From Branchiostoma floridae (taxonomy: Eukaryota > Chordata > Leptocardii > Amphioxiformes > Branchiostomatidae): a stretch of DNA of 64,000 nucleotides. The notes beneath the pieces are model-generated. The model saw only the letters and a program-made list of their open reading frames with translations. It did not search any database and had not been told where the DNA came from. This document shows positions 14,101 through 60,900 of this stretch, piece after piece. The stretch covers positions 17,406,564-17,470,563 of the forward strand of contig NC_049988.1 in the NCBI RefSeq assembly GCF_000003815.2, given 5' to 3'. The translations under genes and the position numbers were made by a program. Numbering within the stretch: the stretch's first letter is position 1; every line of letters starts with the position of its first letter.

Positions 14101-17100
14101 CAGTCTAAATGTCATGGCCTGGGGGAGCCAAGTACACTGCTTCAAATAAAAAAAGATTTAAGGGAACAGACTAATACTTCTCCCATCGACTGGCTTATGA
14201 ATAGTAACAAGCGGCTTTAAATACCTTAAAACGGAAGCGCACCATGCGCACAGCGTTACACGTGCGACAATACAATCACTGCTTCAAAAGAACTTGAACT
14301 TCATCACAAGCTCATCAACTCGGTTATTTTCAAATACTATCACACAGGAAAACCAACCCTAAATTAGAATTACAGAGAGACACGGCAGCAACGACGGCCA
14401 ACCAAATGGTCGCGCGCGAAATTCAAACTTTACCACGTGCTGCCAGCCCAAATTCAACCAACTTCGCACAAGTAGGCGATCGTCAACCCAGCAAGAAAAA
14501 AATCATAAAGTGACAAGCTGTTAACTATTCTCAGTCACTTGTGCGTGAAACTAACCAGAAATTCCGGTTCAAATCTACAAATTTGCGTTGCCGTCTGTGC
14601 CCGCCGGCCAAACAAAAAGTGGTACAAACCGAGAGTCCGCTAGCTCGAACTCCTCGCTCTGGGTCGATCTGCTTTCCTCACTGCTGGTGGACATTTAAAC
14701 GGCAGCTTTCTCCGGCACTCCTACTATCAAGATCAACTGCACTCACAATGCACAATGGGCACATACCTAAGCGTGCTCAGAATGTCTCATGACTGACCTT
14801 GGCGACCTTTCAAAGAGTGCTCCGGCTTTTGTGACTACTGCAGTACATGCACTTGGCATGCCAAACACTGGGGCAACACAACACACCGAGGCCAAAATAC
14901 CCTCCTATAAGCGAGGTCCCCTCCCGCACCTAGTAACTGATCGGCTCTGACGAGGTAACGGTTTCCCCCCGCACACTATCTACCCAGCTGATGTCGACGT
15001 CAGCATGCCATCTGGCCACTCTCAGATCGTTTACAATCCTGCTAAACTTGGCTCCTGACCCTACCATAACAACACGCCACAAAAAATCAATGCAAACTGC
15101 GTAGCAACACCTCCCAAATGACAGCACAAGGATCATGCGGCCCCTAAATGAGAGATAGCAACTCCCAGCCACCTCCCACTGGTCAAATGATGGCACCAAA
15201 GTCCTTGAACGCCTGTGGTTGGTTTGCCCTGACATAGTATGTCACGGGGCTACCTACATTTGTCAGCTACAAGCCCCCAATGGTCCGAGGTCAAAGCAGG
15301 TCAGCCGGGCAGCCAGAACACGTGAACCGGCCAGCTGATCGCAACAGCCACTGGCCAGCAGCCCGCCACTTTTTGAAATGGCCACGCAAACTTTTGTCAA
15401 CCTTCCCCGTAACGTTGTTATCAAAGTTGTGCTGGTAGGCACCCCGTTATTCCATAGAACACTATAAAATCCCCAAGCTACATTAGTAATTCATTATTCA
15501 TTGCTTTCCAAAGAAATTTGCAGAGAACCATCATTCATGCCTTGTCTTTCCTTCATGCCTAGAAACTCAATTTTACAAGAATAAAACCCAATATTACCAT
15601 GATAGCGAAATACATCTCCCGGTAAAAGGCTTTAATAGTACCCTCTGAAACATTCCATTTGAGAGTCTAACAAAATTATCCCTCTTAGCGGATCTGTGTG
15701 GATTTGCCTCAAAAATATGGCCCCCTCTGCAAATTGAAGTTTAATATAACAAAGCGCGAGCGCGCGTTGCTTATTGAAGTCTGTTTGGGGAGATAACTTA
15801 AGTGTAACACATGACTTGGCTGTGTACGTGACTGCCAGTCTTAATGCACTTGACACCTCACCCCCTATGCAATACATCCATAAATTGAATGCGAAGCACA
15901 TAAGCACTGGAGGCACCTTTTGGGGAAAAACTACAAAACCTACAGCACTGGGGCACAAAACAACACAGTCTCCCTCCCGTCTAGCAACAACATGGACTGC
16001 GCGAGCCCAGCCAACACGTGTCCGTGTTTGGATGGGAACGACTATCATGTACCTTGACCCCTTGACCTGAAGCAAACTAGGCTGTCTGGGCGTCTACGCA
16101 CGTGAGACCAATAAACGATAGCATGGCAACCAGAATAGCGGGAGTTTTAAAAAAAGGCACGTGGACGTTTGGACGGCGTGGGGCGGTATGTCCGAGAGCG
16201 CGCTGCCGTGAAGTAGCGCATCGCCGTTCGCCGCCGAACGTACCACACTCGCCCGGTCTGTGAAAAAGCGGCCAGGTACTGAGGTCTTGGCAGCGGTTGT
16301 GTAAAAGCGGGCAGCGTTGTGACTTGAATTTCTTCCAACTATACTGACAATGAAAACCACACATGGAGAGAGAAGTACGTGACAGAATACAATAGCTTTG
16401 AACTTGCCCTCTGCCCCTGTGTCTAAACTGGGACTAAAGATACAACCCTGATACAAACAGTACCCCAGACATTGGCAACGTCAACATGAGCTGGGGGCCT
16501 CAACAGGAGACAGCAGCGACATGAGCGCAGACTAATTCTCCAGGCTTTTGGATATTCATGATGTTCTCCACAGGACTCTAGTGAAAATAGATGGGCGCAA
16601 CTTGGTTAACTCCCACGAAATAATATCTCACACTAGGAAGCAAATCTGAAGCCTTCCTAAGCTCTTTGGTTCACCACAGATGTTTCCAAATTTAATATCT
16701 TCCACCCACATGTCTCGTTGTAAACACACGCAGCTTCTGAGTTGGGAAGAATTAGTACCCTAAGCTGGGGGCTACCTTGGGCTGTTTCAAGAAGACGAAA
16801 CATACATGCAAGCATTGAGAGGGAGAGTTTTATCCAGCTATAGAACAGGGGTAAACAAAAACACAAGTGGTGAGTTCAACTGGAGTTTTGTTCGTCATCT
16901 GGTTGTTTGTTTTGTTCGCCGTAAGAGTAGCACCCATTACAAAACAAGCGTCTCCTTTGGTATGAATCACATAACATTTTGCAGACCAATATTAAACTAA
17001 CCAGACTATGTTAAAACATCACCCTCAACAACACAATCTAATCCTACAACAGACAGACTCGTTTCCTGCTCGCAAAACTTACAAAGATCGCAGCCAACAG

Positions 17101-20100
17101 CCAACGAGATCGCAGAGATTGCAGCCAACAAAACCGTAGAAAGTAAAAGGGCCACATTTTATCTGTTTTGTTATAGCAATAAACTTGATACTGACACCAA
17201 CTGGCCAACAAATATCGCGAACCACGTGAACATATCGCGCAATGTCAGCGCAAAGGCGCGAAGTTCAAACTGACCACGTGCAACCGAAGCGAACACGTGC
17301 GAGCAAAGCTCGAAGTCTAGGCGCAGATTCTTCCAAAGCAAAACATGACACGAGGTATTCCTAATTCAGCAGAATAGCATATTAGGATTGGGTATGTTGG
17401 ACTTGTGCCAGCAAACTCAGAGGACAAAATCCCAGTGCACATACAATCACTTCTGCTAATGTAAGCACAGATCCGCAAAAGCCTAAAAACATGGAAGTGT
17501 CTATTTTGGACTCTAGAAACACCAATCAGGCTTACTTGTAGCTGGATGTTGTGCCGAATGCATCAGTGAAACGTTCCCCAAGAGCGCAGCTATCTGCAGG
17601 AGGCTGATAATGCTTTAGAATCCTGCCCGCCACGAGCTTAATTTATCCTATGTGATCAGACAGCACAAGCAGGAGCGTCATATGTCGATGGATTCAAGCC
17701 AAAAACACTACAAAACTGGCCACTGTCCTTGCCAAACTGCCCGATCGGGGTAGCTACCGAGTAACCAACCGTGCAAAACGTCTCTTTGTGCAACAGTAGT
17801 TCCGTCCACGTGTTGCGCGCTTCTGCCACTCACCGAAAAAGGTAACCAAAGACGCCTCGCGGCGAAATCACGTGGATCGCGTTAGATAAAAAGGACAAGT
17901 TCGAAATCCTGACAGTTTCAAGAAGGGGATGGCTAGAATTTACCAACACGTGACTCGAGAAACGTACGCGATTCGATAAAAGTATACGGCGCGCGAACTT
18001 TAAACTGCACGTGCAGCAGCGTACATCGCAAATAATCGTAAAACAGCACAAGCAAAATGACCAGTAGAAAGGTATATATAGCAGACAGGAAATGGAAGCA
18101 TACCTACATGTACATGTGTGTAGTCATGCCCTTCCAGACATAACAGCCTAATCTGACTCCGTCTGGGCACGTAATCAAAAATCTGCACACGCCCGGGAGT
18201 GTGCCATTATATATTACTCATTAATCATGCTTTTAAACTCCATCATTTATGCACGACTGATAAGATTATTCTATTATCACCTGCTAGGAGCACAAAAAAT
18301 TGGCTGAAAGCAAACTCCTAGAATACAATTTGTCTTTGCTGTTGGTAGGAAATACATGAACTCATAACCTTTCCATCTGTACACTCCAACATGCAGAGGA
18401 TATCCTGTGGATACCTCTCTTTCAGTCTTTGTAGCTCTGGGTTTTCAAATGTGCCGCCAACGCAATATGCGCATGGCACCGGACACTGTTGTCCCAAAAG
18501 CGCCACGAGAAGCGGATACTTTTCTCGTGTGAAATGTAAAATCTATCCTGCCCCGACATGGATACCGCCTGCCCTGGCACCTAGGCAGAACATGCCATGT
18601 TGTCCTATGTGACCTTCAAATTGTGCTTCACTCTAGATTGCGTTGGGCCCCTTGCCAAGTTTACCCATTTAACATGCACCACACATGATACTTTGATTGC
18701 ACACAAGCTGTTGTGTGATATGACAAACATTAATACTTTCTGCTTTCATGTTCAACATTTCCCTTGAACATCTTCGCTACTAAGACGTCTCCATCTCAAT
18801 CTGTCAGTTCCTCGAGCCCGCTAAAAATCGTGACTGAAAACCGACCAATAATACTCCAGGGGCGTCCGCTACGAAACTAATCCTCAAGCAACAACAACAT
18901 GTTGAAACCTAAGCCCTGTCTTGCGCGCGAAACTTGAAAAAATCCGGAGCGCAGTATCTCTAAGTCTCCCCTGAGCTCACAGCAACAGCGCATACCTGTG
19001 CGTGCACCCCATGTCCCCTGCGACCTTGACGCAAGACAATACAGTGAAGCAGACAGCAGTGCCAAGTGCTACACTCTAATGTACATAGATGTCTGCCACC
19101 TCTGAACAGATGGCACGTTTCATGGTGGTTGTACCAGACTGCGAGCAAAGTGTCGCGAACTACAAAAAAACGTGATCGCTCCAAGTGAAAAACACATCCA
19201 AATATCTAAACGACATCTACGCAACAAGACATCCCCCAATGTGCATCTTACAAATGGCACTTTTGGTTGGTGCCTAGTGTTGATCAGAAATCATTTAGAA
19301 CCAGCAACAAGGCTGTAAAGAATGTCAACCTGGCTGACCATCAAAGCCTCCGACCAAAATAGATTTGACCTGGAAGTAAATTGCCCTGAACTGACCCGAA
19401 CCTCACAGCTGGGAAGGAACCCAAATAGCAGTGACCATTTACAGGCAATCGACCATCTTTGGTCGACCCGCAAGACTATAAAATTATTGATTTACAAAGC
19501 AGCCTGAAACCAATTAAAATGGACAGGCCAGGGATAACAACTGGTACAATAAAGTCACTGAAAATGCAGAAACTAAGATTTTTTTTACTGACAGAATCTC
19601 TTAAATTTTCCATGTTTTGTTAACCAAAAGGGAAGCAAAACCTTGTACAATGTTTGCCGCACCAGTTCCACGGCTTTATATGCAGCAGTTCTTACCCAAA
19701 AGCGTCATCTAAGATTTCCCATGGCTCATTTGAACTTGACCTAGGCTGTGAAAGACGACACTCTCAAAACACGCAGTAAATCTACGGGCTCACAATGCGT
19801 TGTCCATTTGATTTTATGGTTTCCAAAACTAGATTTCTATCTGCGGGCCCACAAGCAGCGCGCCCGCACAATGCTATATTTGGACCACCATCACATTTGT
19901 TGTACATCTCGGCAGAGGGGCATGAAGCAGACCTCTCCATGGACTTGTAAATCTACAACAACATAAAGGCACCGTATTGACCGTAATCGAACTTGACCAT
20001 GACTGCTGGATAAAAATACAAATGGAGCCAGGCTCCGTGGGGCGACACAAAACCCATCATTTTCCCCGAACGCAACCTACTTGACACCGCTGGTGAATGT

Positions 20101-23100
20101 GCTTGAAATCGACCATCATGAACTTGAAGTGAACAAAGGCCCTGACCATGACCTCGGCGAACTCTCGGCAGCGTGTGGTATGCTCTTAACACAAACATGA
20201 GGGACTCCCATCCTGGCACTGTGGGACCACCAATTACCGCATTGCTACACACCTAATGACCACTATTAGGACTTGAAACAACCTCGCTGTCTTATCCTAG
20301 ATCTTGGAGACACTACCAGCAGAAGATTTGTCTCAGTAGGTACATTTCTGCCGACTTTGACCAATAACTACGGGAGCGTTCAAACCTGTTTAACAGTATG
20401 GACAGTTACAGACAGTTAATCAATTCCGCTCCAATGCCTAAATGACACCCCTCTGCACTAGTGACATAGGTCATGTTTTACAAGCGCTAATGTCCGGTCC
20501 GCTATTGACCACTTGTTAACCTGACAAATTAATCGCTGTAATAAAAACACGAACACATAAATTAATTCACATCTACATGGCATGTAACTTGTACGTACAT
20601 GTATTACAAAATGACGTTAACACACAATAAATTTGATACACATGATACAAAATGCTCAGCTAGTTTTGAAAACATCTAGATCTAGGCGTAGAATCCTTAC
20701 CGTCTTAACGGGTACAAACGCACAGAAACAAACTTGAAATTAGTGGTAAAATCCTACAGTGTACGAGTTGCGGGTAAAAGCGACGTAAAACAAGCCTTGT
20801 CCACGCGTTAGCCACGTGGCTTACAATCTACATTTACAATAGTACAATGAGACGCAACTCAAGACATTACAATGTGCACGCCATTTTCATTTGAACAATA
20901 CAGAAATCAACGAAATTGACATTGTTCCAATGCCTCCAGGCCAGTTAAGAGCACATGTTAACCAACGGCAAAAATCTAAAAATTACGTGCCAGCAAAAGA
21001 TTTTGTAACCACCGCTTATCAATTTTAAAGAGGCAGCTTAACGTCAGTCATCCTTGCACTTGAAATTGATATATACATATCTATATACTTACCACAGGTT
21101 ACATGTTAAATCTTGTGCTTTACGATCTAATGCCGCAGTCATGAGCTTGGTCGTTTAACATGCCTTGTGGGTCCTTTAAACGAGCAACAAGTGTCCATGT
21201 GGCTAAAGTACACCTCAACGTTTACGAGGCAACCGATAAGTAATTCACCTCCATAAAACCAGCTGACATGTAAATATTTCATGCCCTAACCATGACACAA
21301 ATTAATTACATGGCATTACATTCCTTAACGATTACCACTAAAATCAAAATATAACTATTCCTTGGTATCTACAATCTTTATGGCGAGAGCGTTTCACCTC
21401 AGCTGCACACAAATCCTATGCAATAAAATTAAGCCTTCTGTTTTATGACCGCTTTCGATAAAACAACAGACGCTGTATGGTAAACTCATGGCTGTTACTA
21501 CCCTATAGTATGACAGTTGCCAGCAATTAAGTCCAAATGTCACCAATTTACAATGATCAAAGCCAACGTTGTTGAACTTGGGTTTTTGATATGCCTCTTG
21601 GGTCAGCAAGCATCCGCATGTTCGTGTTTAGAACTTCTTATATGCCCTGCCAAATTGTCACAAAAGCAAGCATGCTCAAAATCAAGGCAGAGAGGTTAAG
21701 TTTTGACATTTCTCAACCATCCTTTCAAGCTGAGGTGAACTTGGCAACCACAAAGACTTTGCATGCTTTGTTGTTTAATAACGTTGCGGTACGTACAAAC
21801 AACTTCAAGCATCACACAGGAAATGTTACACTTGACCTTAGACTTGTCTCCCATGTCATTTTGAGTGAATAACAAAGCTAGCGGAACATAGACGTACTCA
21901 CTTACCTTGTCAGCATTGCGCATCATGCAAAATATCAACTTGAGCTTGATCACGAATCAATCCGCGAACACGAATAAAACGGTCTAACCCAGCTCTAACA
22001 TTGCCACAGCACACTGAATGTACGGGACAGTACAAGATTCCGACATGTTCCAAGTCTACCTCTCCTGGACATTCGCCAGCGAAACAACACTGAAGTCGCT
22101 TAGAACAAAAGGCTGCACTGTCGCCAATGTACTATGAACACGCGCCAAGGCACATAACTTCGAGATCTAAGTCAATATCAGGGGCTTGCCAATTACCAAT
22201 GTCCGCCTTGCCCAAAGAAACAAAAGATCCACATGCCTGTCTATGTCACTGAGAAACGAGAAAAAGACCAAGTCTGATAATCGAGTCCCTAGCAACAGAC
22301 TATAAAACTGCTAGTAACAACATGCGCCATTTATAGTAAGCCATAAACGGAGACTATAATGCTTTCTCGTAAAACCGAGTTCACTAGCATCACTAGCCCC
22401 AGAAATATCCATCTACAAACTTTGCTGCGTACGTTACAAAGGCTTTGGCACAGATCCAATAACTTTTCAAGGATACAATAGTCTTCCGGCAAATCTTTCG
22501 CTGGTAGGTTCAAAATCAAATGTTCCCTTTCTATCGCGTACAACTACACTTGGCGGTAAAACAAGATGTGTAATATGGAAACATTTGTGCTGATGATACG
22601 CAAATATCAAATGACGTATTACATCATGATGCATCATGACACGAAAATCAAATGCAAAACGCATGAACATGAATACTTTTTAAGCAATACATACACACGC
22701 GTAACACAAAACTACATACTTCAAGACATGAACGTAATGGAAAAACTATACCTTCTACATGTACGCACAAGCGTACGCATGAACGTCCGATAACCTAAAC
22801 TGGTTCGGCAGGTAAGATACCAACTATTCCTTACAACTTGACCTTTCCTGACCTACACGTGCATGCTACATACTCCAACCCACCCAAAACCGCCCACACA
22901 TTCTCTCGATTCTTTTTCTCTACGAATCCTCAAACACATTAGCAAAGACGGCGATGTAAACAACGAACAAACGACAGCAAAAAAATTCAACACCACCAAG
23001 ATTGAAATACCGTCAACGCTATGAAACGCTGTTGAAACAGCGTCACCATACGTCTGTGCGTTAGGAGCAAAATTCTGCATTATTCGTTACTACGCGAACA

Positions 23101-26100
23101 TCTAAAAAATGGGCGACAAAACCATCCGTAAATGGCGCTACATATCAACAGACGTGATCCTTGACCAGTTGTCCTCACATGACCCCACAACAGAATAGTC
23201 CTGTCCAGCCCGACAACGTGATTGGTCAACGTTGCTATACTATGGACCAATCACAGACGGGATACAGACATGCTAATGACCTACCTTTCCTACAGGTGGT
23301 AGCTACCTACAACTTACCGATCGCACGAAGATCAGGTGCCTCATACTCCTCAGACGTTGTTTTGTTTACTAATCTCGTACGGAAGGCTCTTTCTAACGTC
23401 CGAAAGTATCTATCTTACAATAACGGGCGTTTTCTTCGCTTATCGGAAAGCGGGGGCGCGAATTTCGAACGCTACACGTGCGCGTGTCGCTATCGGTGCA
23501 ACAGGCTGAACGGGAAACACTCCTTGGCAAAGTATTCTGTGTACGTGTTACAATTACCTTATCTCTGATGACCCGAGCAATACAGAGCAGCCATTTAATA
23601 CCAAACAAGTACTCACGGCCATTGAAAATACATCTTGAACATGACCGCTATCTACGGGCGACTGAGATTCCTCCCCGCACCCACGTTAGCTAAACTTGAC
23701 CCCTACTGACCCAACTACTTTCCTCTAAATTGCCGACAATCTAGCCTAAACGCTGACATAAAACACACCGGTTGTCAGAAAAGGCAGCAACATTTTTCAG
23801 TTGCACAACAAACACACCAAACCTGGCAGGACCCCTCCATGTCTGGAGCAGTAACACAGAAAAAACCCAAAGATTTAACCTTGTCACACATGAAATACGA
23901 CCCCTTCAGTTGTTCACACATAGATCACGGAGAAGCGGATCCGTCAGAAACCTACTTTTGTGTGGGAGCTTCCTGCCGGTCGAGCGACATTGTGCTCTAT
24001 TATGGCAGACTGCTTGTCAGAAACATCCACTCAGCTACAGGGGAGATGGTTGGACTATGCAATTCATTTTCCACCAGAGAAATTACCACGTTCGCCCAAT
24101 ATTTTATTCTGCTCATGTACCAGCCCGGCTCAAGTAAGCAGAAACACATTCAAGAGGCATTTAATGCTCCACTTTGAAATCTTTTGTTATGCAAGATTTG
24201 GATACGTGAGGTCATACCAAAAGTTGAACTTGACCCATGACCCACACATAACAATGCAGCTAGGGGATTTAAAAGGAGGGCCATGTGTTTGCCAGCATGG
24301 GGTAACTTCCAACTTCAAGTCCAGCGATTTTCACTGCTTTCACAACTTCGAGAACTACGCAATAGCGCGGGAATAATGGCGGCGCAAAATCAAGCGAACT
24401 TGTCCGAGAAGGCAGACAAGTTTATATCCTAATTAAGGTCACAAGTACAATCCCCTGACCCCACGACCTTTATCAACACAGCAGAAAAGGGTGTGTGCAC
24501 GTGAGGGGAACACCAATGGGAGGAGGGCCAAAACAAATGCGGCTCCCGCGCGAGACACGAACGTCGGGACCGAATTTTTTCGAAAGATTCACTTGTGGCG
24601 GGTTTACGGCAACATGGCTGACAAACAATTAACCATGTGTCGCGTTCCATAATTCCGGGAAAATTACAAAAGCGTCGGCACCATCACTCCTGACAGGCAC
24701 CTCCCCTGAAATACTGCCTTCCCCCTGCAGCTACACCCCTCTGACCCGACATTCTAGACGTCTGAAGTGTGCAAAATGTCACAAAGATCCTGTTTACGTG
24801 CAGAAACGCATCCAGATGGAAGCCAAGAGTATTAATTTTGGCATATTAACAGGATGGGGCCCAGACAGGTTGTGCATACAAATGAGTTGTTGAGTCATCA
24901 ATACTTGCCGGCTGACTTTGAACGTGCAGCCAGCAACAAGGCACGGCAGGAGAGGCCTGCCATTGTTTCTTCTTCCAGGTGAGACTAAACAAACAATTAC
25001 CAGACAAAAAGACGTGATGGAATGAGCACCAACTGAACTTTGCTACAAGTGCCACTGGAGCGACAAAAAAACAGGCCCAACCTTTTGTCTACTGCCTACA
25101 TTGGCAACCAACTTGGCCAGCTAGCAAGTTACAGCTGGCAATGAATGAGCGCGGATAAAAACAATAGCACGTGGTATGCCACGCCATAGTGGGCGCTACA
25201 ATAACCCCGGCAAAAGCGCGCCGCTTCGGACTTCGCGCACGTGGACATCGGCGTGTTTCGGAAAGTCGCGCGCCAAATTCAAACTCTACACGAGGAAAAG
25301 CAAAAAATGCTACCTTCGAAAGTCCTCCTTCCATAATGGACTCACAGTGAGCCATTCCGCCAAGCGCTACAAGCCTATGAATGTAGGGTAGAGTATACTA
25401 CGCCGCGTACAAGCTGTGTTACATCTCCCACCAAAACAAGCACAAAAAACCTTTCCTTTCTGTGAAAAATACACGTGAATCCGTTCTCCAAGCTACAAGC
25501 ATGCCGCAGAAACTTTCCGACATAAACGAAATACGCGAAAGCGCAACGCTATTCTATACTACACGCGCTCGTACGCGGCTCAGAAACGTACCCAGAATCC
25601 AGCATTGCGTTGCTACACCACCTTCCCTGTGCAGAAATGTACTACACTACCAGACATGCAAATTAGGTTTAGCCACGCCTGTGCCCTGCTGACCCCATAA
25701 CCTGGCTTCGGGTCATCTTGGACTCCGTAGTCAGGTGACCAGCTACGCGCCACCTTCAAATCTCCCCACGTGGACAAACGGAACGGCCCGTTGACAAAAC
25801 TACGTCGTCTTTTGTACCTTCCTTTACAATCATAAAGGTTCATGCAAAAATTTCACAGGGTGTGGGGCTTCTTAGACGAGGTCAAATCGACTGTTTACGT
25901 TGCGTCTGGTCTATGTTCATTGCAACCTCCACTCACGTGCCTGCAACTTGTCGGCACCTTCGCAAATTGAGCTCTTTCCGTTGTTTCTTTGTTCCAAAAG
26001 CAGCCAAGATTATCTTCTAAAGGCTGCAAGTCCAGCAGTCTATACACGGACTTTCTGTCTCCTTAAAAGAGCGTCTGGAAGTAAACACAAACCAGACATA

Positions 26101-29100
26101 ACACACGTGTACAGACTTTTAAACCTAGCCTTGGGACAAGACTGGCTCTTTTTCTTCCTTTTCAGACTTTGTAAAGCTCCATTGAGAAAAAGAGAATGGG
26201 CAAGCTAGACTGAGATCTACAGGAAGGGGGTGTTAGAATGAACGTTCAAGTTATGATTTCTGTCATTGTTGTTTTTTGTCTTTTTTGCACATGACAATTG
26301 CGTTAACCTTGTTAGAGTTAGCAAGGACATCATAAGACTCACACTAGTATAATCTTAAATATCTATGCCTTTCCATATGCAGTTAAGAAAAAAATTCTGC
26401 TTCAAAAGTTTTGGTTTTTCATAACTGTTTATCAAACAGTTGTTCTTGGATTGGTTTTGTGCCTCGTTTCAAGTTCCAATTAAAATTCTCTGCGGTGCCA
26501 CAACTTGCAATCCACTGTCTCAGTGTGTTATGATTAACAAACAACCTCATTGGCCCCTCAACATAACATGATGTTTTTTCAACCAATCACAATGGGAAAG
26601 GCAATTTTGAACTCAATGGAGGAATGATGCATTATGTCATTGGCACCGTAATCACAATGTCGTGTCGTTCAAATCATAAACCATTAACAGACAGTCTTTG
26701 CTCGCTCACGCTCTGTAAACGCCTGACACACTTGGGTACCTTTGATCTATTGTTTGCACACCTCTGCAATGTTGAGTACAAATCACCTGGGAGAACCTGC
26801 AAGGGGAATTAAGCGCCAGCATGTCTAATTCCAAACAGCATAAAGGAATATACCTTTGCTAATGAAAACCCCTTCACCTGGCCTCTTGAAGACTTGAGTA
26901 GGATTCGTGAAGCTAAAATGGCTGGTGAAATTATGCTTAATGACGTGTAAAGGTAATGCTGTCTCTGGTACAGGTTAACAAAAGAAAAAGCGACCTTGAC
27001 CGTCTGGTTTCCATAGCCAGTCCAAAAACAAGGAGAAAATAATATACTTAGGCCACACCAATTTAATTTCTTGGTTCACGGATTTTTTCATAAAAAATAT
27101 GGAGCGAGAGGGCGAAATAAAAATAAAAATAAAAATTGTAAAATGGTTGGGGTAAAGGTAACGGCTAATCCAAAAAAAAAAAAAAAAGTTTTCAGCTTGA
27201 AAAAAGTACAAAAACACTATATTTGTACAGTAACAGCACCTGTACCCACACTTTAAGGAGCTTATAATATAAAGGCCAATTTGCTACACCAGAAAGTTGG
27301 TGAATGGTTTCATTAATGGTGAAAATTTGCTGAGTGGTAATTTTTATTTTTATTTTTTTTCCCAAAAAATAGGAGCGAGCGAATCCGTGAACCAAGAAAT
27401 TAAATCGGTGTGGCCTAATGCGAAATTATCATACAATACAGTTGTAGCTATTTTCAAGATAATAGTCTTATTTTCAGATAACAATAGCTATTCACAATGT
27501 TACATTGGGCATTTTTGTCTCACCAAAATTAGCCATGAACAATATTACTTCCCAAAATTACTTCCCAAATTGCACTATGTGTCTACCAGGGAGACACACG
27601 CACACAAAACTGTCTAAAACACACAATAACAAATTAATAATACAACAAAGCCCAACAGTACAATAGTGGCAGATGGTAATGCATGCATTAAGAGTCTAAT
27701 GTTCTTAAGCATCTTGCTGTTCCAAACACAACCATAAAAAAAGGTTTATAAAAGCAATTTACAAACTTTTCACAAAATCAAACGTTATCTTTTCAACCGA
27801 TAGAGCGGTCCTTTTGGTCTTGATAGAAATAAAACGCACAAGGTCCAACCACCTGCTGACCTTCACATCATCAAAATGCTCGACAGGTGCACTAAGTAGT
27901 CAGCTGGGTTTCATCTGTCACTGTCATCTGTAAGCCCCCCCACTCCCCAAACCTCACAGCCATCTACTGTCTATCCATCAAACCAGCAAAAATCCTACAC
28001 AAATCTCGCAAAACATTCCTGATGAAACTTAACCGCAGTGTTTAACTGATTCGCGTTGAGACTAACGTTTTTTGTGTAGAATACCAAATAGATTTGAATC
28101 TTAAATCCATTGTTGGAATTCACTGTTTACCGACATTAAATTTTTTTCAGACTCCCACAGCTGAACAATAGAAATGACCTGCACTTGGTCCTAGAAGTCA
28201 AGGTTTCCGACCTTTGGTCTGGTTGTAGGTCTGGGCATATTTTTGTGGGTCAGTTCAATTCAACTGGAACACAGACATATGATCACACACAATACTAGTA
28301 ATATGGTATGTTTGTTGCAAATTCCTTAGGGTTAAATATTAACATATTATCTGCAGATTTTGTTTCAAATTCGAGGAATTTCTTGTTTCCTTCCGACGGT
28401 AACTTCTCAACATCCATCGCAAATCGAGTTCCAGCTTGTCAACCTTTCATTAAACACCGCTGGAACTGAGGGAGCAACTATTTATGGACAGTTGCTTGAC
28501 GATCAATGAAAATGTTATCTATCGCACGCTAGGAGTGATTAAAAGCCCCAACAACACACGGCACGCTGTCCGGAGCATGGCCTGGACTCAACCACGTGGA
28601 CATCAACACAAAGACACTCGAGAATCACGTGGAGATCCCAACGTGGTCGGACAGACGAAAACAAACTAGCGGGGACGTAACGAGCGCTTTAACGAAAACT
28701 TAAATGGATCTTGTTTTTATGGTCGCTTAGGAGTTTTACAACATTGTAAATTGATCGCGGAATACCTAAACATTCTTTCAACTATGAAGATTAAAATATC
28801 TTCAATTGTATTTGCAGCTAGCATGTGTCAGTGTATGTTTCCAACGATTTACACGACGATGTGATGTGTTCCTCTGAAAGCTGATCTCTCAGAATCATAA
28901 TCCAATCACAAAATTCCATATTTTTCATTAAGGCAGCATTTTAATTAGTCTATCTTTCACAGCAGGGAGAATATAAAATGGCTGACATCTTCTCTCTCAA
29001 GCTGAGAAGCCCATTATACATGCTAACAATCTATGACTTGTCATGTGACTTAGCTCGGTTCCAAATAATAAAGTATCTCAATATTACCGAGAGAGACTTT

Positions 29101-32100
29101 GCCCTGCGGCTAAGTTGGGAAGATTATTATATTGTGTCCTAGGGTGGCCCTGTTCTATTGATCAAGTACCGGCCCTGGGTGTGTGCTGCCAACATGCAGA
29201 TGAACCTGGTGCCTAGGGCAATGTCTGGTGCCTACAAATTACAACTGCTCACTGTGGTGTTTGGGAAGAAAACCCAAGAAGGGCCCCACCAGACAGTTAC
29301 AGAGTACGCAGGCAGACAGACATCCTGCATTCATTTTCCTCTCTTTCACCCTTAAAACCTTGACCTAGCCCACCCACCACCCATTGTGCACAGGATCTGA
29401 ATACTAATCGGAACCTTCTTCTGTGTCTGTACAACATGGTGCCAAACAGACAATTAGCCAACGTCCCCATCTGGTCCTCAAACCAACTCCAACAATCCGC
29501 AAAGACGTGCCCAAGTCCACGCAGCTTGAAAAACCCGCTCCCCACACTTGGATCCGATCGCCAGCAACAGGCCTGTGGTTCGATATCATGTGTAAAAGCC
29601 GCGTACACGTGAGGGTCAAGTCAAAACAAAAGCACGTGGGTGGCCACGCCCCCCCCACAAACCGGACCAGTTGGCCGAACTAAAACTCCGGGTCCCCACG
29701 TGATCGGCGGCGTGCTGTGCGAACCTCGCGTCTTGCGTTCGAACATATCGCGCATTTCGCGCCTTATCGGGATACTTCAGCCTGCTTAAAACAGAGGGAT
29801 ATCCCAGAAAGGACACAATTTACAAGCTCATTTACTTCACACACTCTATACTCAAAGAATGTGAACCTTGGCCTTGATACAACATGTGCATACTAATGAG
29901 TCCATAGCTCAATATCCTTTATTTCCCAAGTTCATGTTCATGTCAGAACGATTGGATTTCTGTCCATACATCTTGTTCAATGAGAAACAGCGAAGACTGC
30001 ACCCGCGGACCTTATCTGAATCGCTTTGCTTCGGTAAGACGAAAGGCATTCGAAATACCTCAGCATAGAGATATACTAGTGGAAGGGAGGGGAGGACTTG
30101 ATCATGTGCAGATCTAGTCACAACATACGCACGTGGCTAGCACGCTGCAAGCCGTCCAACCAGCTGGGCACACCAAATCTACCGTTTTCACGTGGACGGC
30201 GGCGTGAAAGGTACTCAGCACGCGGAAGTAGACAACCAAACCTGTGCCGCACGCGCAAGACATCCCGCAAAGACGCCCGTTTCACGACAAACACTGTCTT
30301 TTTCGCTAAACCTGAACCCTTTTCGTATTCACGACATTCTGACCATTTTGAAATGGCGTGCAAGCAGTTTTCGAGATTTACATACAACAGTGTATAGTCG
30401 TCAAAACAGTATCTTTTTGAGATCTCAGTCAGAGTAGCGCTTCAGCTTGAAGCATGGCCGCTATGATTTTTCAGTTAATGTGTAACACTGTAAGAAAATC
30501 CTTTGGTCAATCACAACGGAAGTCCGGTCAAAACAAAACAAAGCGCACGTGCTAGGCTACAAGTTCAGTTTAGTTCAGAGGTGGCTGGCTTGTTCATGTG
30601 TGCCACATGTGAAAGATCTATTCCCACTACTTTATCCCCTGCTTACTTTTGAGTGCAGGAAAGGGGCATTTCGGGGTTTCTTCCAAGATGCAATCTGCAG
30701 CCATATTTTAACTTTAAGCAATCTATCCCCAGCTAGAAAGCCTCAGTGTTAACCTTTGGTTACAAATGTACCAGTTACGCAACAATGACATTTCGTCTAC
30801 TTTCCTAGTTATGTACTAGAGACAAATATTCGCCAAAAGCACGATAAAAGCAGCATCAAAGACGTCAGGTTTAGAGTTGCCCTTAAAAGAGGCCCCTAGG
30901 ACTTTACAAACCAAAGTGGCTCCATGGCAGAATTCCAAGAAGTACACTAGAAATGACTACTTACAACAATTTGCTTTTTTCTTTGTGATCAGTGTATTAT
31001 CATTATTAATACCCGCCCAAGTTGAGTGCGCTTTCTTCCAAATGAAGCCATTCTTAAGGATTTTGTTGTCGACAGTGAATGTTCTGATACAGCAGCCAGT
31101 TCATCATGATCTATGCTCTGGGACCCAGGAGACATATTCCTACGATTTGAAAAATGGCGGTTCAGTAAGATTAACATCGTATCTTCCGTATTGGGTAGAA
31201 AAGAGGCACAAACCGTAGCCGTTCTCATAAAAATGACAATGTCTCATGCATGCAGATCAGCCCAGTTACATGTCGTGAATACAAAAACAGTCCTGTTTTT
31301 CTCGCTACCCTATTCACAACACAATATGGCTGAACTCCATTGTCTGTTGCTGAGTCAAGTTCAAAAGCGCTTCCTTGTGACTTGTCTGCTGTACTTATAT
31401 CACAACAACGTACAAAGCCCTCTGGCGTCGTTAAAATATGCCGAATTTCAAGGGACCATCTTTGCGGTGTCTTGACCCTTTATTTTGAAGAATGATGGCA
31501 TGTTTTCAATTATTCCCAAACTTGCAGGAGCTCAATGACATGACCTTGTTTCACTGCAGGGGGGTTTTAGATGCACTTTGCATACTGAGTTACAGCGTTC
31601 GTCAGAGTCATTCTCTTCGCAAGTTTCTCAGAAAGGAAATAATGGGTAGAGCCCTGCATTTTTATGAGTTCAGCGATTAAAGACATCTCACAAATGGAAC
31701 AAGTTTTGGGGGGGCTCCCAACGAGAGTGTGCGAGATATTTTCTTTCAAAATTGACTGCGCTAGGAGCAATAGTTTACTATCAACAAATTCCAGCCATCA
31801 TATGTACGGACACTTTCTTTCTATTTCCTTTACCTAGTATTTTGGGTTCACAACTTGAGATGTTACAGTCTCGTGTTCTACTTGCGCAAAAAACGTCGCG
31901 CCTTTCTCCGATTTCCCTTTCAATTTCGTCAAAGCAACATCAAATCTTTGTTCCTTACGTAACTTCTCTTGTATACATACAGAAGGAGCAACCTTCATGT
32001 TCACAGTTATTAACTACCACCTGACTGCGTTTTGTGCATTAGAGCAATACTGGTAGTAAAGGAAGATTTGTCGCCACCTATTCTCGAAGAATGAGTAAGA

Positions 32101-35100
32101 GGTTAAAATCAGTGTCCACCAGAGCGACGTCACCAAACACGTGAGCGTTTAAAAGGAAAGGCGCCACATTCAAAAACAGCACGAGCGTACGGCTGTACAA
32201 GCGTTTCAGTTTTACTACTCCCACTCTATCTGATAGCTGATCTTTTGGATAGCTTAAACAGAATCTAGCATCTGGGAAATTTTAAACTTGGCCTCTGCGC
32301 ATATCCGACATGTTTGTGAGGACAATGTCCATAGCCGGAGACATTCCAGACTTGGGTAAGACAGTACGCCGCGCTCGAATACAGCTCAAAGAGCGGCCGT
32401 CAAAACATGACCTCACCCAGTACCTGACCTTTTGGTAAGACAACCTTTCACCCACAGAGTCAGTCGTGAGAGGGAGGGGTTGGTTTCAAATATTTAAAAA
32501 AGAAAAGCAAGCAGTTACTTGCGCTGGGAACTTAAACTGACCACTGCTGCAGCAAACATGGCTCTACTGCTAGCCCAGACATGCAAATCAGGGCACGAGA
32601 TATCACTCCAGCCAGACCAGCGACCCTGACCTGCTAACCCGGTTAGTCTGGGTCACTGCGGGAGTCACTACAAGTTGACCTGGCTAGTTTTCAAACAGAC
32701 GGTAGCACAACTTACACACACAGTAGCTAACATCACTTCCTTTTCTTTGGCAAAATATAACAGCCAAACTCAATACGCCATGTACAGTGTTGTAGTGTGT
32801 AACAACATCATCAAAGTCTAGATTTCTAAAAGGACCATGGGTGAATATCTAATGTTTAAGAGGACTCGAAGTAGGAACAATTACTGACTAGTCATGTCAC
32901 TTCCATGGTCAAAAATAACAATTCCATGTCAACATAAAGTCCTTGGCTATATTTTGACAATTTTTTTGGCACAAGTTACAGTGCAGGTTAGCCCGTAGTA
33001 TTTTATTTTCCATTCTTATGATTCTACAGTCATCAACATCAGGTAAACACTCTTTTCCTAGACAATGCGCCAAGGCAAAACGGAAAATGCTTTACTATCA
33101 AAGCCAGAAGTGTGACATCTTTTATGTATCCTTCTTCAGGCAAAGACTGTGCTGTCAGTAAAAACTATGGGATGAAAACAGCCATTACCTGTTCCTTTAC
33201 GACAGTGTATGTTTGAGTTTATGGTAGTATTTACTTTCTGCTTTATGGTTTTTGAAACCTGCCATTTTCTCCCGAAAGTTACAGTAAGAATAACTCCTTA
33301 AAACGTCTACGCAAAAAGATGACAAATTCGACATACTACCAGTAACACTACTACTTATACACAAGTTCATGCGTTCACACAAAAGGCACACACATAAAAG
33401 AGAGAACTTAAGTCACGAAAATTGCTGCCCAGCTATAACACAACTACAACATCAAAAAACGCACAATGGATCTCTGGACAAAAGCCTGTAGTTCAACTAC
33501 ACTATCCCGACAAAGGAAAAATGACGACCTTTCTTATGGAAAGAAGACGGGGTCTCTCAGGCCAAGAACCTCTAGCCTAGCGCCGCCCCCAGCCTAGGGC
33601 CTGACACAGAGGCAACCTGGCACCTAGACATGCAAATTATGTCCTGCTTGAATGGCGCGCCAATGACCTTGCAACCTACTGCCCCCTTTCCTGAAGGTCA
33701 TCACCGTCCCCACGGTCACGTGACCGGCGGGCGATCAATGGTGGGAAGGGCGCGCAAGCACAAATCCGCACGTGGACGAACCTGGACTGAAGTGCGAGGG
33801 AAAAAAGTTGCAGTTTTTTGCTGCATTCTATCTGTAGCTAAGAATGTGAAGGGTCAAGTAAACAGTCTGGAGTTAGGGAGAAAACATTTCACGGTCACCA
33901 AGGATGAAAGAAAACATGGACTAGCGCCTCTTCTGTACGGGAATATAAGACATTACACCACAGAACTAAAGGCAAGATGCTGAGTTTCTTCATCAGAGTG
34001 TTTTTAGCCACATTGCTGGGCTCTGGGCCTGTGCGTTTGTGCTAGACATGTCAGTGAACTTGCCCAGAACTAATGAAAGCCTGTCTGGAAAGTGTACAAT
34101 AGTCTGAGTGAAAAGATTAACACAAGTACAAACATTCACACTGAAATACGCCAAGTTGCCGACTACAAAACTCCTTCCAAGAGTACTTACTTATGCATTT
34201 ACAGGCCAAGGAATAGTGTAGATCTAACTTTGGAAAAATGTTATAGACTTTCGATAAAGGTATTTTACATATTTGCAAGTTGTGACTGAATCAAGAAACA
34301 AGTTCTCTTCAAAACTGTTTATGACATCCAAGGTACATGAAACCATCCCCATCCACAAAATTTCTGACACTTGGCATATTTGTTTATTTTTTCAGCGGAA
34401 ACAGTGGCTACTATCTCCTAACTCTGTATTGCAGGGCATACCAGAGGTCAGAGGTTACAAAGAGTAAAAAGGGGAGGGGCTGACTTTTAAGAAGCCATAT
34501 CTCTTGCAAGATTTCATAATTGTGAGTTTTGAGAAATACAGTTATGGTCCAGTCATAGGCTTATGAACCATTATACGCCTATTGGAAAATACTGCACGAG
34601 TATGTTATGACGAGGGTACAAATGTGTGTGTTAACCTATTCAAACAGGCCTCTCGCTGTGTTTCAGATTCAAACGATACGTCGTATCTTCGTAAGCCCTG
34701 TATTGGTCAATCAGCACAACTACCCTATTGGGTGACATACCAGCTTTACAGGCACATACATATGTATGCCTGTTACAACAGCTATCAACTTCAATCAGAC
34801 AGACTTTACATGTGCAATGTTAAGATAGATCTATATGCCAAGCATCATTTACAAGACGGGGAAATTCGGTTATCAAAAGAATGGGATTATTTTCAACCTA
34901 CGTAGCGATGCACGATACTTACCAAGTGATAAAGCAAGTTGCAATAACTTAGAGCCCGAATTTCACTAATGGATCATAAAAAATTTTGTGATCATTATCA
35001 AATTTGGCAAAAATGAGCTCACCAATCTAACCTGGGCTAACTAAATCTCAAGTACTTGTGAATAAAACACTAATTTCAAGAAGTCCCTTAAGGCATTACA

Positions 35101-38100
35101 AAATAGTAAGAAGGATTACTATAAATTCTTGGCTTTGCTACCAAAATCCTACCAAAGCTTTCGAGCATTACCAATATAGAGATTAGGAAAAAAATTCTCC
35201 TATCTGGATGTCCAAGGTTTGAAACAAATTTTGACCTTTATCGTGGAAATTAGGAAAAGAATATCTCCTAATCTAGATGTTCAAGGTTTGAAACTGAAAC
35301 ACTTCTCTTCTGTAGGTTGGATCTTAAATTGTAACAACTCCCCTTTACTACAAATACATGCATGGGCTGAAGCATAGCCGGCCATATTAGAAAAAGCAAC
35401 CAACCATTGGTTTCTGGGTCAGAGAACTCTGCAACCATAACAGGATACTAAAACAAAGTGGTCTCATTTTTCTTCATGCTAACATATGCCGATCCATTGC
35501 ATAGGTCAACATACATCTCCTACATTGAAACTACATACTAAAAGACATTTCAAGAGGTAATTAGCACTTGTATCTTTGCTAAAAGAGTGTCCTAGATCAT
35601 TTTGGAATGCAAGCCTTTCATTTTAACGACCTCTCCTAAGCTTCAGAAGCTTTGGCATTGTGACAGCGCTAAAACTACAAACTCAATCCTTCTTTCAAGA
35701 AGACCATACCAAATGCATACCATGGGTGTGGATTAGAAAATGTGCAAAAGAAAAAGACCCTCCCATTTTTTTGCAGCCATGTTGGCCAACACCCGGCAGC
35801 CATCTTCTTCTAAAGGGGTCGGCACACAATCAAGACCACTAAATTAACATTCCTGCGGCCGTACCCTGATCACCATTGCTGATCAAACAAGAGGAGATTT
35901 TTCCTTCTCACAATCTAGCCTGCAAAGATGCAAAGGAAGAAATACAGAAGTTGTCTTTACCTAGGGTATTCCAGCATTCTGGTGTGACGTGGGAGTGTAA
36001 ATGTGACGTAGGATGAGGTCCTAGGGATTCATGTACATGCGGCTTGGCCCAATCTTGCCTCCCTGCCACGTGGTCAGGCCTGCTCTCAACCTGATGACCA
36101 TCTGACACCCAACTGGTCAGGGGGTCATGAATATTCATGTAACCACGCCCTAAAGGGTCAACAGGTATCCCAGGAACCATTGTGGTGGTCAGGACCATTA
36201 GAAGTGACCAGGGGAGGTTTGCCATATAATAAATCTTAGCAAGAATTATTGGGAGACATTCTGTTGAAGACCAAGAAAAAATACTATAACAACATACCTG
36301 ATGCAATTATACAAAAATTAGGTTTTAACTTTAATGCAAAATTTTTCTCTATTGTCTTAAATACATGTTCCAAAAGTGGCACACAAATTGTTTTGTGAAT
36401 GAAGAACTTTGTGTTTTATGGCTTTTATGGCCAACAAAATAGTGCCAAAGGATATCTATACCTTACATACCTCTACTGCAAATGTTATAATTGAACAAGT
36501 TCATAGTTTTCGATACACAGTAAAATGTTTACACTCCTGTATCATTTTCTTGCCGGCAGGCTATTTCGGTTCATTTGAATTGTTCATTCTAGGTACACTG
36601 AAGAGTGATAGATGTCACTCAAAACGTCCAGAATTTAACCTGTTTTTTATCCAGTTGTAGAGATTGAATATTGCATTTGAATGTTATTTCAAAGCATCGA
36701 AGTTAGACTTTGGATTCAGTGACGGGTGCATAGCAGGCTGATGGGGAAAAGAACGGTCCTTAGTGGAAAAGCACTTTTAAAACTTTCCCGAACACCTAGC
36801 TGAATTAAATTTGCATGACTCCTGTCACCTCTAACAATGTGTCTAGCGTTCAAAAGCCTTTCATGCTATTGTGAAATCAAACCATTATAATGTCTAAGCT
36901 GGTAGCAAATGGAACATTTCACAAAATGAACAATCATGTGAGCAGAGTAAAAAACCTCCGTGTACCACTTTTTATCGGGACACTACCCACATATGTAGAC
37001 TGATACTTGATCAACCTTTTCTCGCAAAGCTAACAATAATCGTTACAGAGTGCTCTGCTGATATTACATTTTGCTGATTAGTCCTTGGAACGTACATTAT
37101 TGGGAAGCAATTGTTGCTCTCCTGATTACAACATGTCCGAACAAGGCTCCACAATAAGATTAAAGTCGCATCAAAAACCAAAGACACTAAACCATTCCAC
37201 AAATACCCCGCCAAAGCGTCCCAGGCAATTACAGATAATATCAAAAGCTGTGATGATTTTGGCATTTGGGTGTCTGGGCTGCCATTGTGAAAGTTTGAAA
37301 TCCCAGTTGCCACCAGCGGTAGTTCCCTTATCAGCGCCAACATTTGTCGGGCGCGCTAGACACAACGTCGCAACAATGACATCGTCAAATGGAACTCTTC
37401 TGCCACAGTGACATCATTGCATAAGTCATGTCTTAACAGGCTCTCAGGCACCATCTTGTTTGCAGCTACTTGTTTGCAGAAATTTTAACCTTTCGAAACT
37501 TCCTTTCCAACAGATTGCCGCTTTCTTGCGAAGCACTCAACAGCTACATTTACCTACAGGGGATTCCGTCTGTCTTGCTAACCGATTTTGCATGGCTGAC
37601 AAAGTAGACCAGCATTTATGAATGATGACAGCCTAACAATTTTATCTACGATTGCAGAGTGGCACAAGATCGCTGAGAAGCCAGCACCCATGCGAGATAA
37701 CGCAACAATTTCTGGCTGCTCCGTTGGATCCATCCCTCACTGACAGATTATTGCTATAATTCGATACTTCAGTAGACGACTGCACAATAAAGTATTCTGG
37801 GGTCAAGAAGAAAGTCTTCCTCTCAGCGATAAACTAATTTGGCCTCTTAGATCCCTACAGATTGTCTGCAGAATAAGTCTATTTCCCTCATTTTTTTCCT
37901 AGTAATGTAAGATAATTGAGGTATTTACCATGACCCAGGAAAATTAGAATACTAGGATCTTTTCCGTGTTGAAAATGTTTATAAACTGTACTTATTATAC
38001 AATACATTACCTTGTCTTAATCAAATTAACAATCAGGAATATAACTATAATCCACAAAACGAAATATTAAAAAAACTTCTTTTGCTTTCCTTTCCTTTTG

Positions 38101-41100
38101 TAGTCCATAACATGAATTAGCCACTGGTGTAAAATATAACTTAGTTTGTTTTCACAGGAAAAAAGCTAGATGTTACAAGTTGGTACATGTACGCTGATCT
38201 TCTGACACTTGCGTAATTTGAATATACGACTAAACAGCTGCTGCAGCTGACCTTTGCCCTGTGATGCAATGAGGTCATGGGATGACCTCACACTGGCATG
38301 ACTAAAATGTGGGCAGAAAGGATTCAATTCAGTGGAATCATCAACACTTTCTATTTATCAGGAGGCCACCGCAAGAGACATCTTCATGCAAATCAGTATA
38401 CAGATTTATTTTTTCATTCTCAAACATCTTTACTGTGTATGGGAATTTTCCAAGAGGACATGACCCCAAAGCTGGTGCCAAGCCATGAATTTCTTTTTAT
38501 CTTATCGTAGGTGACCACTTGCATCATAAAAATATCTTCATCTGCTAGCTTAAATGGCCGGCTCTCTCATATCATAATTGGAATAAAACAGGCACCACAG
38601 ATCGATAGTTCCACTCACTAACGTCAATGGTGATAAGGAAATGGGTAGGAAAGTGGGGTTTTGATTTGGTCAGGCTAGTAAAAGTAACTTGTTTTAATAA
38701 GCATATACATGGCGTAACATACGATATGGCACTTGCAATTGACAAGAATATCATTATTTCCAAGCTAGGTTTTGAGAATCATGTGCCATGACCTTCGTCA
38801 AGGACAAGAATATTTTCCATGGGTGAAAATGAAAAATAACCATAAAACTACAATATGAGCAAAGTCATTTTTCCATCAGTCAATATTTTATTTCAGAGCT
38901 CTTGACAATATGATGGAAATCTACACCAATGCATTATCTCACTGGAAAACCATTTGTTTGTTTATTTGTATTGCATATCCGGTAAACCTCCTCATGACAT
39001 AACACACCAGGATTGTACTAGTTTGAACTGCTTTTTTATTCACTAACACTGGGAAGGACCCCTTCTATTTTCGATAGGCGTGGTGGGTTTTTAAGATGCT
39101 CGAGGTGTGGCTCTCCTCAAACACAGGACCTCCATTTAATATCCTATCGGAGTGATGACCCTAACCAAAGCTAGGTACTCATGTTCACCTGAGTGAAGAG
39201 AGGAAAGTCCTGTAAAGTGCCGTTTCCAAGGGCGCACGATCGGTGGCACATCAACCAAGAACCTCAGGTTTTTGAATCAAATTGTACCACGCGACCCCAC
39301 ACTATGTAGTACCCAACCTTTCCTTCTATCTATATGATCTGCTACAAATTAGGTTTCTTTCCAGTATTTTCCCAACTTCCAACCAATGTTGGTATTTGGA
39401 AAGAAAATCCAAAAACATTTGCACGCAGTCTGAAGTGTGGATCATGAGATGCTGACTTAACTAATGGCAGAGGGTTCTACGCAAAAGTAATTCCATCAGC
39501 CTTCGTTAGCATCTGTTGGTTAACCAAGCTGGCAAACATCCATACTCTCGAAAAGTTCCTTTGGCTCAAGGCAGATCCGAGAATAAGACAGAGCTTTTCT
39601 TGTCTGGATTATAATTACAAGTATTAGCTAGATCAAAGCCGAGTCATTCTTTCTGGACGTTCCAATGCGAGGAATTTCAACCAAGTCCATGTGAATTCCC
39701 CAAGGCACACTTAAAGACTTCTTGGCAGGAAATGTAGGGAGAAGTGCCAAGGTTTTCACCATAGACCATGCCCAGGTGCTGGGCTCAATCTGTCGCCCTT
39801 CGAGGCAGCACGGCTAGACAACGAACGGCTGCACGTCCTGTGTAGNNNNNNNNNNNNNNNNNNNNNNNNNNNNNNNNNNNNNNNNNNNNNNNNNNNNNNN
39901 NNNNNNNNNNNNNNNNNNNNNNNNNNNNNNNNNNNNNNNNNNNNNNNNNNNNNNNNNNNNNNNNNNNNNNNNNNNNNNNNNNNNNNNNNNNNNNNNNNNN
40001 NNNNNNNNNNNNNNNNNNNNNNNNNNNNNNNNNNNNNNNNNNNNNNNNNNNNNNNNNNNNNNNNNNNNNNNNNNNNNNNNNNNNNNNNNNNNNNNNNNNN
40101 NNNNNNNNNNNNNNNNNNNNNNNNNNNNNNNNNNNNNNNNNNNNNNNNNNNNNNNNNNNNNNNNNNNNNNNNNNNNNNNNNNNNNNNNNNNNNNNNNNNN
40201 NNNNNNNNNNNNNNNNNNNNNNNNNNNNNTGGCATCAATACTTCTATCAGACTTATCTTTATAACATCTAGCCCGCTTTAATCTGTCATTACATCTAATG
40301 GCAGGGAACCATTCAGCTATCTATCTGCACTACGGTGACTTTCTCAAGCCTACAAGGATTGCTTGCTCAGTGTCTGAGGAGGCATTGTTTGGTGCTGCAA
40401 GGTCCCCCCCACCCTACCGACAGTAAATATTTTCACAGGGCGACATTTCACTAGTTCCGCCTACGTCGGCGCTGATACAAACAAGCCAGATTTTAATTTC
40501 ACCCTGTCTGACATTGTTGTCTGCGACAAGCTCAATTACGGGGCACCAGTAGGGTTGTCCTCTTGCTACTAGGCACTGCCATATGCGAGAAATCCTATCA
40601 GGGACTGTGGTGAAGTCCCAAGTTCAAGTATCCCGCCAAATGCACTCTCTTTCCACATCATTGTGCTTTGTTGTGATTGGTCATGGCAGTCCAGCGATTG
40701 GACACTCCAACCCTTCATTTTCGATTCAGCATGCATACTCAGTCAAGGTCATTACCAGCTGACATTACAGAACACAGAAAAATCAATATACAAAAACATA
40801 TGAAGCCTGGAGCTTTCACATGGTCTACTCTGGGAATAAAGTCTTACGCAGTTGCCTCGGTGCGCAGGCAAATACGTGCGCGACTTAGACAAGAAGTAGC
40901 TTCGTGGGGATTCCGGAATTTTTTCTGGACGGAAACAGAGTTCGCATGTTAACTATACGAGGAGACAAACTCGAATATAACATACACATTTGCGCAAAAA
41001 CTTCTACCCAAGATTCTCCGGGAACGAGTAGCAAACCGTTACCAGGGCGCGAACTTTAAACTTCGAAAGCGCACCACGTGCAACTTAGAAGTGCCAGAAC

Positions 41101-60613: not shown

Positions 60614-60687
60614 TGGCCAGTACGGGGATCGAACCCGCGACATTCGCGTTATTAGCAAGACGCTCTAACCAACTGAGCTAACCGGCC
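60614..60687 (-). tRNA. tRNA-Ile (anticodon AAT), one stem mismatch
   Basis: This 74-nt cloverleaf begins GGCCGGTTAGCTCAGTTGG and has a T arm GCGGGTTCGATCCCCGT and an acceptor ending ACTGGCCA. The anticodon loop CTAATAA gives AAT, read as inosine-AU for isoleucine. The acceptor and T stems pair fully (G-U allowed). The anticodon stem TCTTG/CGCGA has a T-C mismatch at 29:41, absent in the copy at 61136. A T5 run about 25 nt downstream on the minus strand could terminate Pol III. Confidence 0.9.
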
Positions 60688-60900
60688 AGACGAAATGCAG
60701 CCGGTAATTACGTTAATAGGTTAATTACGTTAATTAAGGGTAAAGACTGTTGCCGACAAATGCTGTTGTTCTATACTTCAGTTGTATGCAGAGGCGCAAT
60801 GAAACATGTCGTACGATTCTTGTCGTGCAATATTCAGCAAGATTGGGACGGGTCGGCTCGTCGGCAAGGCATACGACGTCCTTTTCCTCAAAGAGCAGAA

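Follow-up and report, generated by a model that had tools for sequence, protein, structure and literature searches.

Many DREAM/MuvB promoters carry a cell cycle-dependent element (CDE; SGCGCS) 4 bp upstream of a cell cycle genes homology region (CHR), and LIN54 prefers TTYRAA (PMC4974476). Adjoining E2F and CHR-like halves also recruit a single complex at the Caenorhabditis elegans DRM hybrid E2F/DP-LIN-54 motif, which is reported to be common to worm, fly and human (PMC3093354). E-boxes accompany such sites at the AURKA promoter, where a CDE/CHR and Myc E-boxes bring E2F/MuvB-type and Myc inputs to a single gene (PMC9448500), and at PRC1.6 (MGA/MAX + E2F6/DP) sites, where an E-box occurs with an E2F motif (PMC5806899). 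In human cells, IGF2BP1, a gene with E-boxes, is driven by MYC/MYCN and stabilizes the MYC and E2F1 mRNAs, forming a feed-forward loop (PMC10226260). Here we describe an array of composite sites, each joining an E2F-type core, a CHR-like TTYRAA and the E-box CACGTG, in an intron of an IGF2BP-like gene of the amphioxus Branchiostoma floridae, within a 64,000-nucleotide stretch of contig NC_049988.1 (hereafter the window). The tight clustering of the sites, the likeness of their parts to known growth-control switches and the great rarity of the combination elsewhere in the genome suggest a dedicated control region.

The sites share with the CDE/CHR of DREAM/MuvB promoters the SGCGCS core, the 4-bp gap, TTYRAA and the order of the parts, but they are intronic, recur across 27 kb of a single gene and have an E-box 3–14 nt after the CHR. 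The DRM hybrid motif is described at many promoters, whereas the amphioxus sites form a local cluster with E-boxes. The AURKA promoter, as reported, has a single diverged CDE/CHR that lacks the 4-nt spacer, in contrast to the repeated array and mostly narrow CHR-to-E-box spacing seen here; because that promoter combines a CDE/CHR with Myc E-boxes, the pairing has precedent, and the unusual part is the repeated array of narrow spacing. Among the titles and abstracts that our searches of the open-access literature retrieved, we found none combining E2F, CHR and E-box as a single element. Relative to PRC1.6 sites, the E2F6 form GCGGGA is present in one of nine sites and a CHR is added. The MYC/MYCN–IGF2BP1 loop is described at a promoter in human cells, whereas the present array is intronic, includes E2F/CHR sites and is a putative control element.

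An earlier note on this DNA had picked out seven sites with the rule [ACG]GCG[CG], 4 nt, TTYRAA, then CACGTG after 3–14 nt, and had estimated well under one chance match in the window. All seven are present letter for letter on the plus strand, and the minus strand has none (Table 1). No match to the full rule arose in 600 Markov-simulated windows. The core alone (VGCGS-N4-TTYRAA) occurs nine times on the plus strand and once on the minus strand, against 0.26–0.39 expected per strand, and appears on neither strand in ten 10-kb stretches drawn at random from this genome. When gaps of 0–40 were scanned on the plus strand, a gap of 4 gave nine occurrences and every other gap three or fewer. Across the 513,431,437-base assembly the full rule has 20 matches, seven of them inside this 27-kb stretch, compared with eight for the pattern read backwards, a generous control because CACGTG becomes GTGCAC, which has no CpG. 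With the 13 outside matches as the background rate, 0.0007 would be expected per 27 kb. The rule was fitted by eye, yet the local excess is far beyond any plausible number of rules tried. As seven of the 20 matches lie here and the remainder are close to the control level, the combination belongs to this locus; the 'new combined element' proposed earlier thus stands as a real, non-random addition of an E-box here, but not as a general element. Outside the locus, the frequency comes near the shuffled-sequence level that the earlier note would have counted as refutation; at the locus it is far above that level. The sites also share one orientation (seven of seven on the plus strand, two-sided P 0.016; nine versus one for the core, P 0.021). 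Four of the outside matches are near-identical (GGCGGG[AG][AG]ATTTGAATATCACGTG, at C14:9934750, C16:12696564, C16:13082282 and C18:10615510) and perhaps represent a separate small repeat family.

The likeness extends beyond what the rule demanded. In the nine plus-strand core sites, the columns left free between core and CHR begin with [GC] (9/9) and A (9/9), A comes next in six of the nine, and C directly follows TTYRAA in six, giving the consensus SGCGCSAANTTYRAAC with CACGTG downstream. Against a matrix built from all nine, eight of these sites reach 19 or above, and nothing else in the window exceeds 14.6, the score of a minus-strand hit at 33661; since the matrix scores its own members, it is the gap rather than the absolute scores that is informative. 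Site 16137, at 14.1, falls among the background hits and is a doubtful member; it is also the one exception to the SGCGCS form of the CDE (8/9), having AGCGGG instead. CHRs of the optimal type as defined in PMC4974476 are found in eight of nine, the exception being TTCGAA at 23455. Two near misses, at 13657 (GCCGC core, 7-nt gap) and 25269 (CACGAG), are as the earlier note described them; a third, which it had read as a reversed site at 32138, is better explained as an E-box lying upstream of a forward-oriented site at 32160 (GGCGCCACATTCAAA with CACGAG after it). Alignment of 12 modules with MAFFT added nothing further.

The composites lie in a domain unusually dense in E-boxes. Between 12.5 and 42 kb, CACGTG is about eightfold denser than in ten random genome stretches (1.65 per 10 kb; 16 in 96.9 kb), and in the remainder of the window its density is 1.46 per 10 kb. 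CpG-centred hexamers (NNCGNN) average 3.9 occurrences in the domain, the next most frequent reaching 13, compared with 40 for CACGTG, so that CpG retention alone does not explain the excess; chance or CpG richness was rejected more generally, being reproduced neither by Markov nulls nor by other CpG-bearing words. A rule-free test of hexamers within 60 nt of E-boxes ranked the E2F half-site GCGCGA/TCGCGC first, with 12 occurrences near (3,389 positions) and four far (25,026), an enrichment to which the composites themselves contribute. SGCGCS stands 12–15 nt before CACGTG at seven plus-strand loci, two of them (25217 and 33749) without a CHR, and at none on the minus strand, where the nearest spacing is 16 nt, at 32165. 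Genome-wide, SGCGCS-N14/15-CACGTG has 132 matches (control, 87), with seven here, all on the plus strand. A second E-box is found 16–40 nt upstream in six of ten modules, against 0.79 expected under local shifting of sites (P 5e-5), although this range was picked after inspection; CACGTG-N15-45-GCGCSAMNTTYRAA has five matches in the genome (control, 0), four of them at this locus.

MITF/TFE proteins have a preference for particular bases beside the E-box. As E-box readers, USF and MITF/TFE were both rejected, the flanks lacking a preference for GT (3/80) or T (16/80 bases across all 40 E-boxes; 0/16 in eight composites). The preference of USF is taken from PMC8431614, according to which CACGTG without a flanking T suits MYC. 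The CpG observed/expected ratio is 0.35 at 42–52.5 kb, averages 0.70 over 10–42 kb and 0.99 around nine of the sites, a pattern that would fit an unmethylated domain inside a methylated gene body. The domain (12500–42000) also contains 64 TGACCT/TGACCC words in 29.5 kb (43 plus, 21 minus), about twice the density of ten random 10-kb stretches (110); we take these words to be nuclear-receptor-like half-sites.

Table 1. Features of the E-box-rich intron and its host gene (positions within the window)
Feature	Position	Strand	Basis
E-box-dense, CpG-retaining intronic domain	12500..42000		40 CACGTG, 13.7 per 10 kb
Composite 1: CGCGC-GAAA-TTCAAA-CTTTAC-CACGTG	14413..14439	+	Exact match; matrix score 25.0
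Composite 2: AGCGG-GAGT-TTTAAA-AAAAGG-CACGTG (weakest E2F half)	16137..16163	+	Exact match; matrix score 14.1
Composite 3: GGCGC-GAAG-TTCAAA-CTGAC-CACGTG	17255..17280	+	Exact match; matrix score 24.5
Composite 4: CGCGC-GAAC-TTTAAA-CTG-CACGTG	17990..18013	+	Exact match; matrix score 24.2
Composite 5: GGCGC-GAAT-TTCGAA-CGCTA-CACGTG	23455..23480	+	Exact match; matrix score 21.3
Composite 6: CGCGC-CACC-TTCAAA-TCTCCC-CACGTG	25746..25772	+	Exact match; matrix score 19.2
Composite 7: GGCGC-GAAC-TTTAAA, 14-nt spacer, CACGTG	41046..41080	+	Exact match; matrix score 24.4
Degenerate composite: GCCGC-TCGA-TTCAAA-ACCGTGC-CACGTG	13657..13684	+	Sequence scan of window
Composite with CACGAG replacing CACGTG, strong CDE/CHR part	25269..25294	+	Matrix score 23.9
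Composite GGCGCCACATTCAAA, then CACGAG	32160..32185	+	Matrix score 20.0
SGCGCS-N15-CACGTG without CHR	25217..25243	+	SGCGCS-to-E-box spacing scan
SGCGCS-N14-CACGTG without CHR	33749..33774	+	SGCGCS-to-E-box spacing scan
Upstream E-box, 13657 module	13611..13616		E-box scan
Upstream E-box, 16137 module	16099..16104		E-box scan
Upstream E-box, 17255 module	17223..17228		E-box scan and genome pattern match
Upstream E-box, 17990 module	17947..17952		E-box scan and genome pattern match
Upstream E-box, 25269 module; also E-box of 25217 pair	25238..25243		E-box scan and genome pattern match
Upstream E-box, 32160 module	32138..32143		E-box scan and genome pattern match
First coding exon, IGF2BP-like gene (RRM1 start)	53790..53970	-	Domain match
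RRM2 exon, IGF2BP-like gene	8456..8557	-	Domain match
Region upstream of first coding exon: three CACGTG and E2F-type TTTTGGCGGGA (54341-54351)	54299..54517	-	Sequence scan

The earlier note had named a diverged repeat family as the alternative, and two versions of it, together with two other accounts of what the sites do, have to be weighed. Genome-wide, GCGCSAANTTYRAAC has 262 matches (control, 9), because GCGCGAAGTTCAAAC is part of an abundant inverted-repeat element: in 27 of 30 loci fetched, it belongs to inverted repeats that come in pairs, separated in most cases by about 1.3 kb, and could thus raise the suspicion that the window sites are copies of a transposon terminus. This account is largely refuted and very improbable. 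The element's fixed flanks (GTGTCTACAGGG...) are absent from the window sites, none of its copies fits the E-box rule, and GCGCSAAHTTYRAAC, a pattern that excludes the element's letter, keeps five of its 26 genome-wide matches at this locus (control, 9; L044 and L061, among the other 21, look like copies of each other). Blocks 17150–18100 and 23300–25900, which hold four of the seven sites, matched only themselves in a DNA search of the genome that skips very common words and left out the blocks around 14413, 16137, 32160 and 41046. Over 250 bp, the flanks of ten sites resemble one another only as much as random flanks do (86.0 upstream and 84.2 downstream versus 86.7, SD (standard deviation) 4.0), a result on which a dispersed repeat was rejected; together with the self-matching blocks, it makes a transposon unlikely. 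What survives of the repeat-family alternative is one pair of modules that looks locally duplicated: a 22-mer at 13597 and 16085 is identical at 21 of 22 positions, and 20 simulations produced no such pair. Local tandem duplication followed by drift, with the likeness inherited and of no present function, would account for this pair, for the single orientation and for the modest likeness of the 60-bp upstream flanks (mean 23.1 versus 15.6 at random, SD 3.3, P 0.013; 0.041 without the 13657/16137 pair), part of which is due to the upstream E-boxes held in common. We consider it rather unlikely, as neutral decay should blur the boxes like the flanks, yet eight of the sites stand clear of every other hit in the window while the 250-bp flanks are at the random level. 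Local duplication with decay of the flanks and retention of the boxes may explain the same three features, although duplication is clear for one pair only. The abundant element was seen at loci L009–L022, L025–L028 and L030–L038; as GCGCGAAGTTCAAAC is itself a CDE/CHR-like word, the element could scatter CDE/CHR-like sites across the genome.

The remaining alternatives concern who reads the sites. A silencer array of the PRC1.6 type, whose E2F site and E-box would be bound by E2F6/DP and MGA/MAX and whose TTYRAA would be secondary, draws on the CACGTG and GCGGGAA of known PRC1.6 sites (PMC5806899), on a 2603-amino-acid open frame in this genome with an MGA_dom match (E 1.7e-12), and on 25217 and 33749, which hold the E2F–E-box spacing without a CHR. 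We regard it as unlikely, given that eight of the nine sites have GCGCS in place of the GCGGGA core and that no feature of the array is as rigid as the exact 4-nt placement of the CHR. It is more improbable still that each site, with its CDE/CHR and E-boxes, is the promoter of a non-coding transcript from the plus (antisense) strand. One orientation throughout and the position of the CDE upstream of the CHR, as in known promoters, speak for such promoters, but the plus-strand skew (A over T, C over G) resembles minus-strand transcription, the intron has no Rfam match at gathering score and no clear common sequence follows the E-box. The skew itself reaches 0.16 (A over T) and 0.19 (C over G) at 12000–26000 and exceeds that nearer the promoter. 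A nested gene or RNA was rejected on the same Rfam result and on the absence of Pfam families in three large open reading frames (ORFs) from 13–42 kb (ten ORFs scanned in all).

The reading we favour, with about even confidence, is that the intron is a dedicated cis-regulatory array for E2F/DP-MuvB and a MYC/MAX-type protein. A full unit would consist of an E2F site (SGCGCSAA), a CHR 4 nt past the five-letter core, the two forming an element for E2F/DP and LIN54-MuvB, and an E-box mostly 12–15 nt after SGCGCS, with a second E-box 16–40 nt upstream in six of ten units. Its predicted readers are E2F/DP with MuvB, which would repress in the form of DREAM and activate in that of activator E2F or Myb-MuvB, and a basic helix-loop-helix leucine zipper dimer of the MYC/MAX family at the E-box; through enhancer or silencer action, transcription of the putative target, IGF2BP, would track growth and cell-cycle state. 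Local duplication may have contributed to the growth of the array, with later decay of the flanks but not of the boxes. The CDE/CHR tandem of E2F/DP and LIN54 proposed earlier holds for sequence and 4-nt spacing, which fit the published element (PMC4974476), and the columns outside the rule agree; it fails for location, since known tandems lie at promoters and transcription starts and these sites lie about 13–40 kb into the gene from its first coding exon, where an unannotated internal start is possible. This location weighs against the E2F/MuvB and MYC/MAX reading, as do several other results. The MGA-domain match and two weak CXC (LIN54-type) matches in the genome speak for the reading, as do the MYC/MYCN–IGF2BP1 loop and the AURKA promoter, but the CXC matches, one partial and one near threshold (E 5e-5 and 8e-4), did not identify LIN54 itself. 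Only two of ten modules have a CCAAT box within 150 nt, and four have MYB-type words within that distance. Around the other 21 GCGCSAAHTTYRAAC matches (17 of 21 loci), the 20 ORFs scanned, chosen among the larger of 154, included no cell-cycle family, the families found being a transporter and a galactosyltransferase. The all-plus orientation, moreover, is not needed by free transcription factor sites.

A more specific and tentative proposal, which we hold possible but doubtful, is that this is a one-locus integration array: a narrow-spaced E-box / CDE-CHR / E-box module read by E2F/MuvB and MYC/MAX-type proteins, hard-wiring in an invertebrate the MYC–E2F–IGF2BP loop known from vertebrates. 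If real, the array would be a natural, densely repeated grammar in which two master inputs of growth control, E2F/MuvB and MYC/MAX, meet at a single gene, one that in vertebrates sustains the MYC and E2F mRNAs in turn; how old the loop is and how it is wired could then be tested directly. It would also provide a clean case of DREAM-site/E-box spacing working outside promoters.

The host gene is IGF2BP-like and lies on the minus strand, with the RRM1 start at ~53970, an RRM2 exon at ~8557 and a KH1 exon at ~5172. The sites had been assigned to its intron 2; they do lie between the first RRM1 exon (~53970–53790) and the RRM2 exon, but the number is unproven, as the short exon expected in between was not found. 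A minus-strand proline-rich open frame beginning MAAGAPDAALAV (52940–53120), just after exon 1, ends at a possible donor site and is perhaps an alternative first exon. At gathering score, the Rfam hits were three minus-strand tRNA genes (60614–62847), upstream of the gene and outside the intron, and the same area holds a 108-bp tandem repeat (60901–61118). Within the intron, an inverted repeat at 27048–27418, which begins TTAGGCC and has 37-nt arms that are 97% complementary and 297 nt apart, looks like a small miniature inverted-repeat transposable element.

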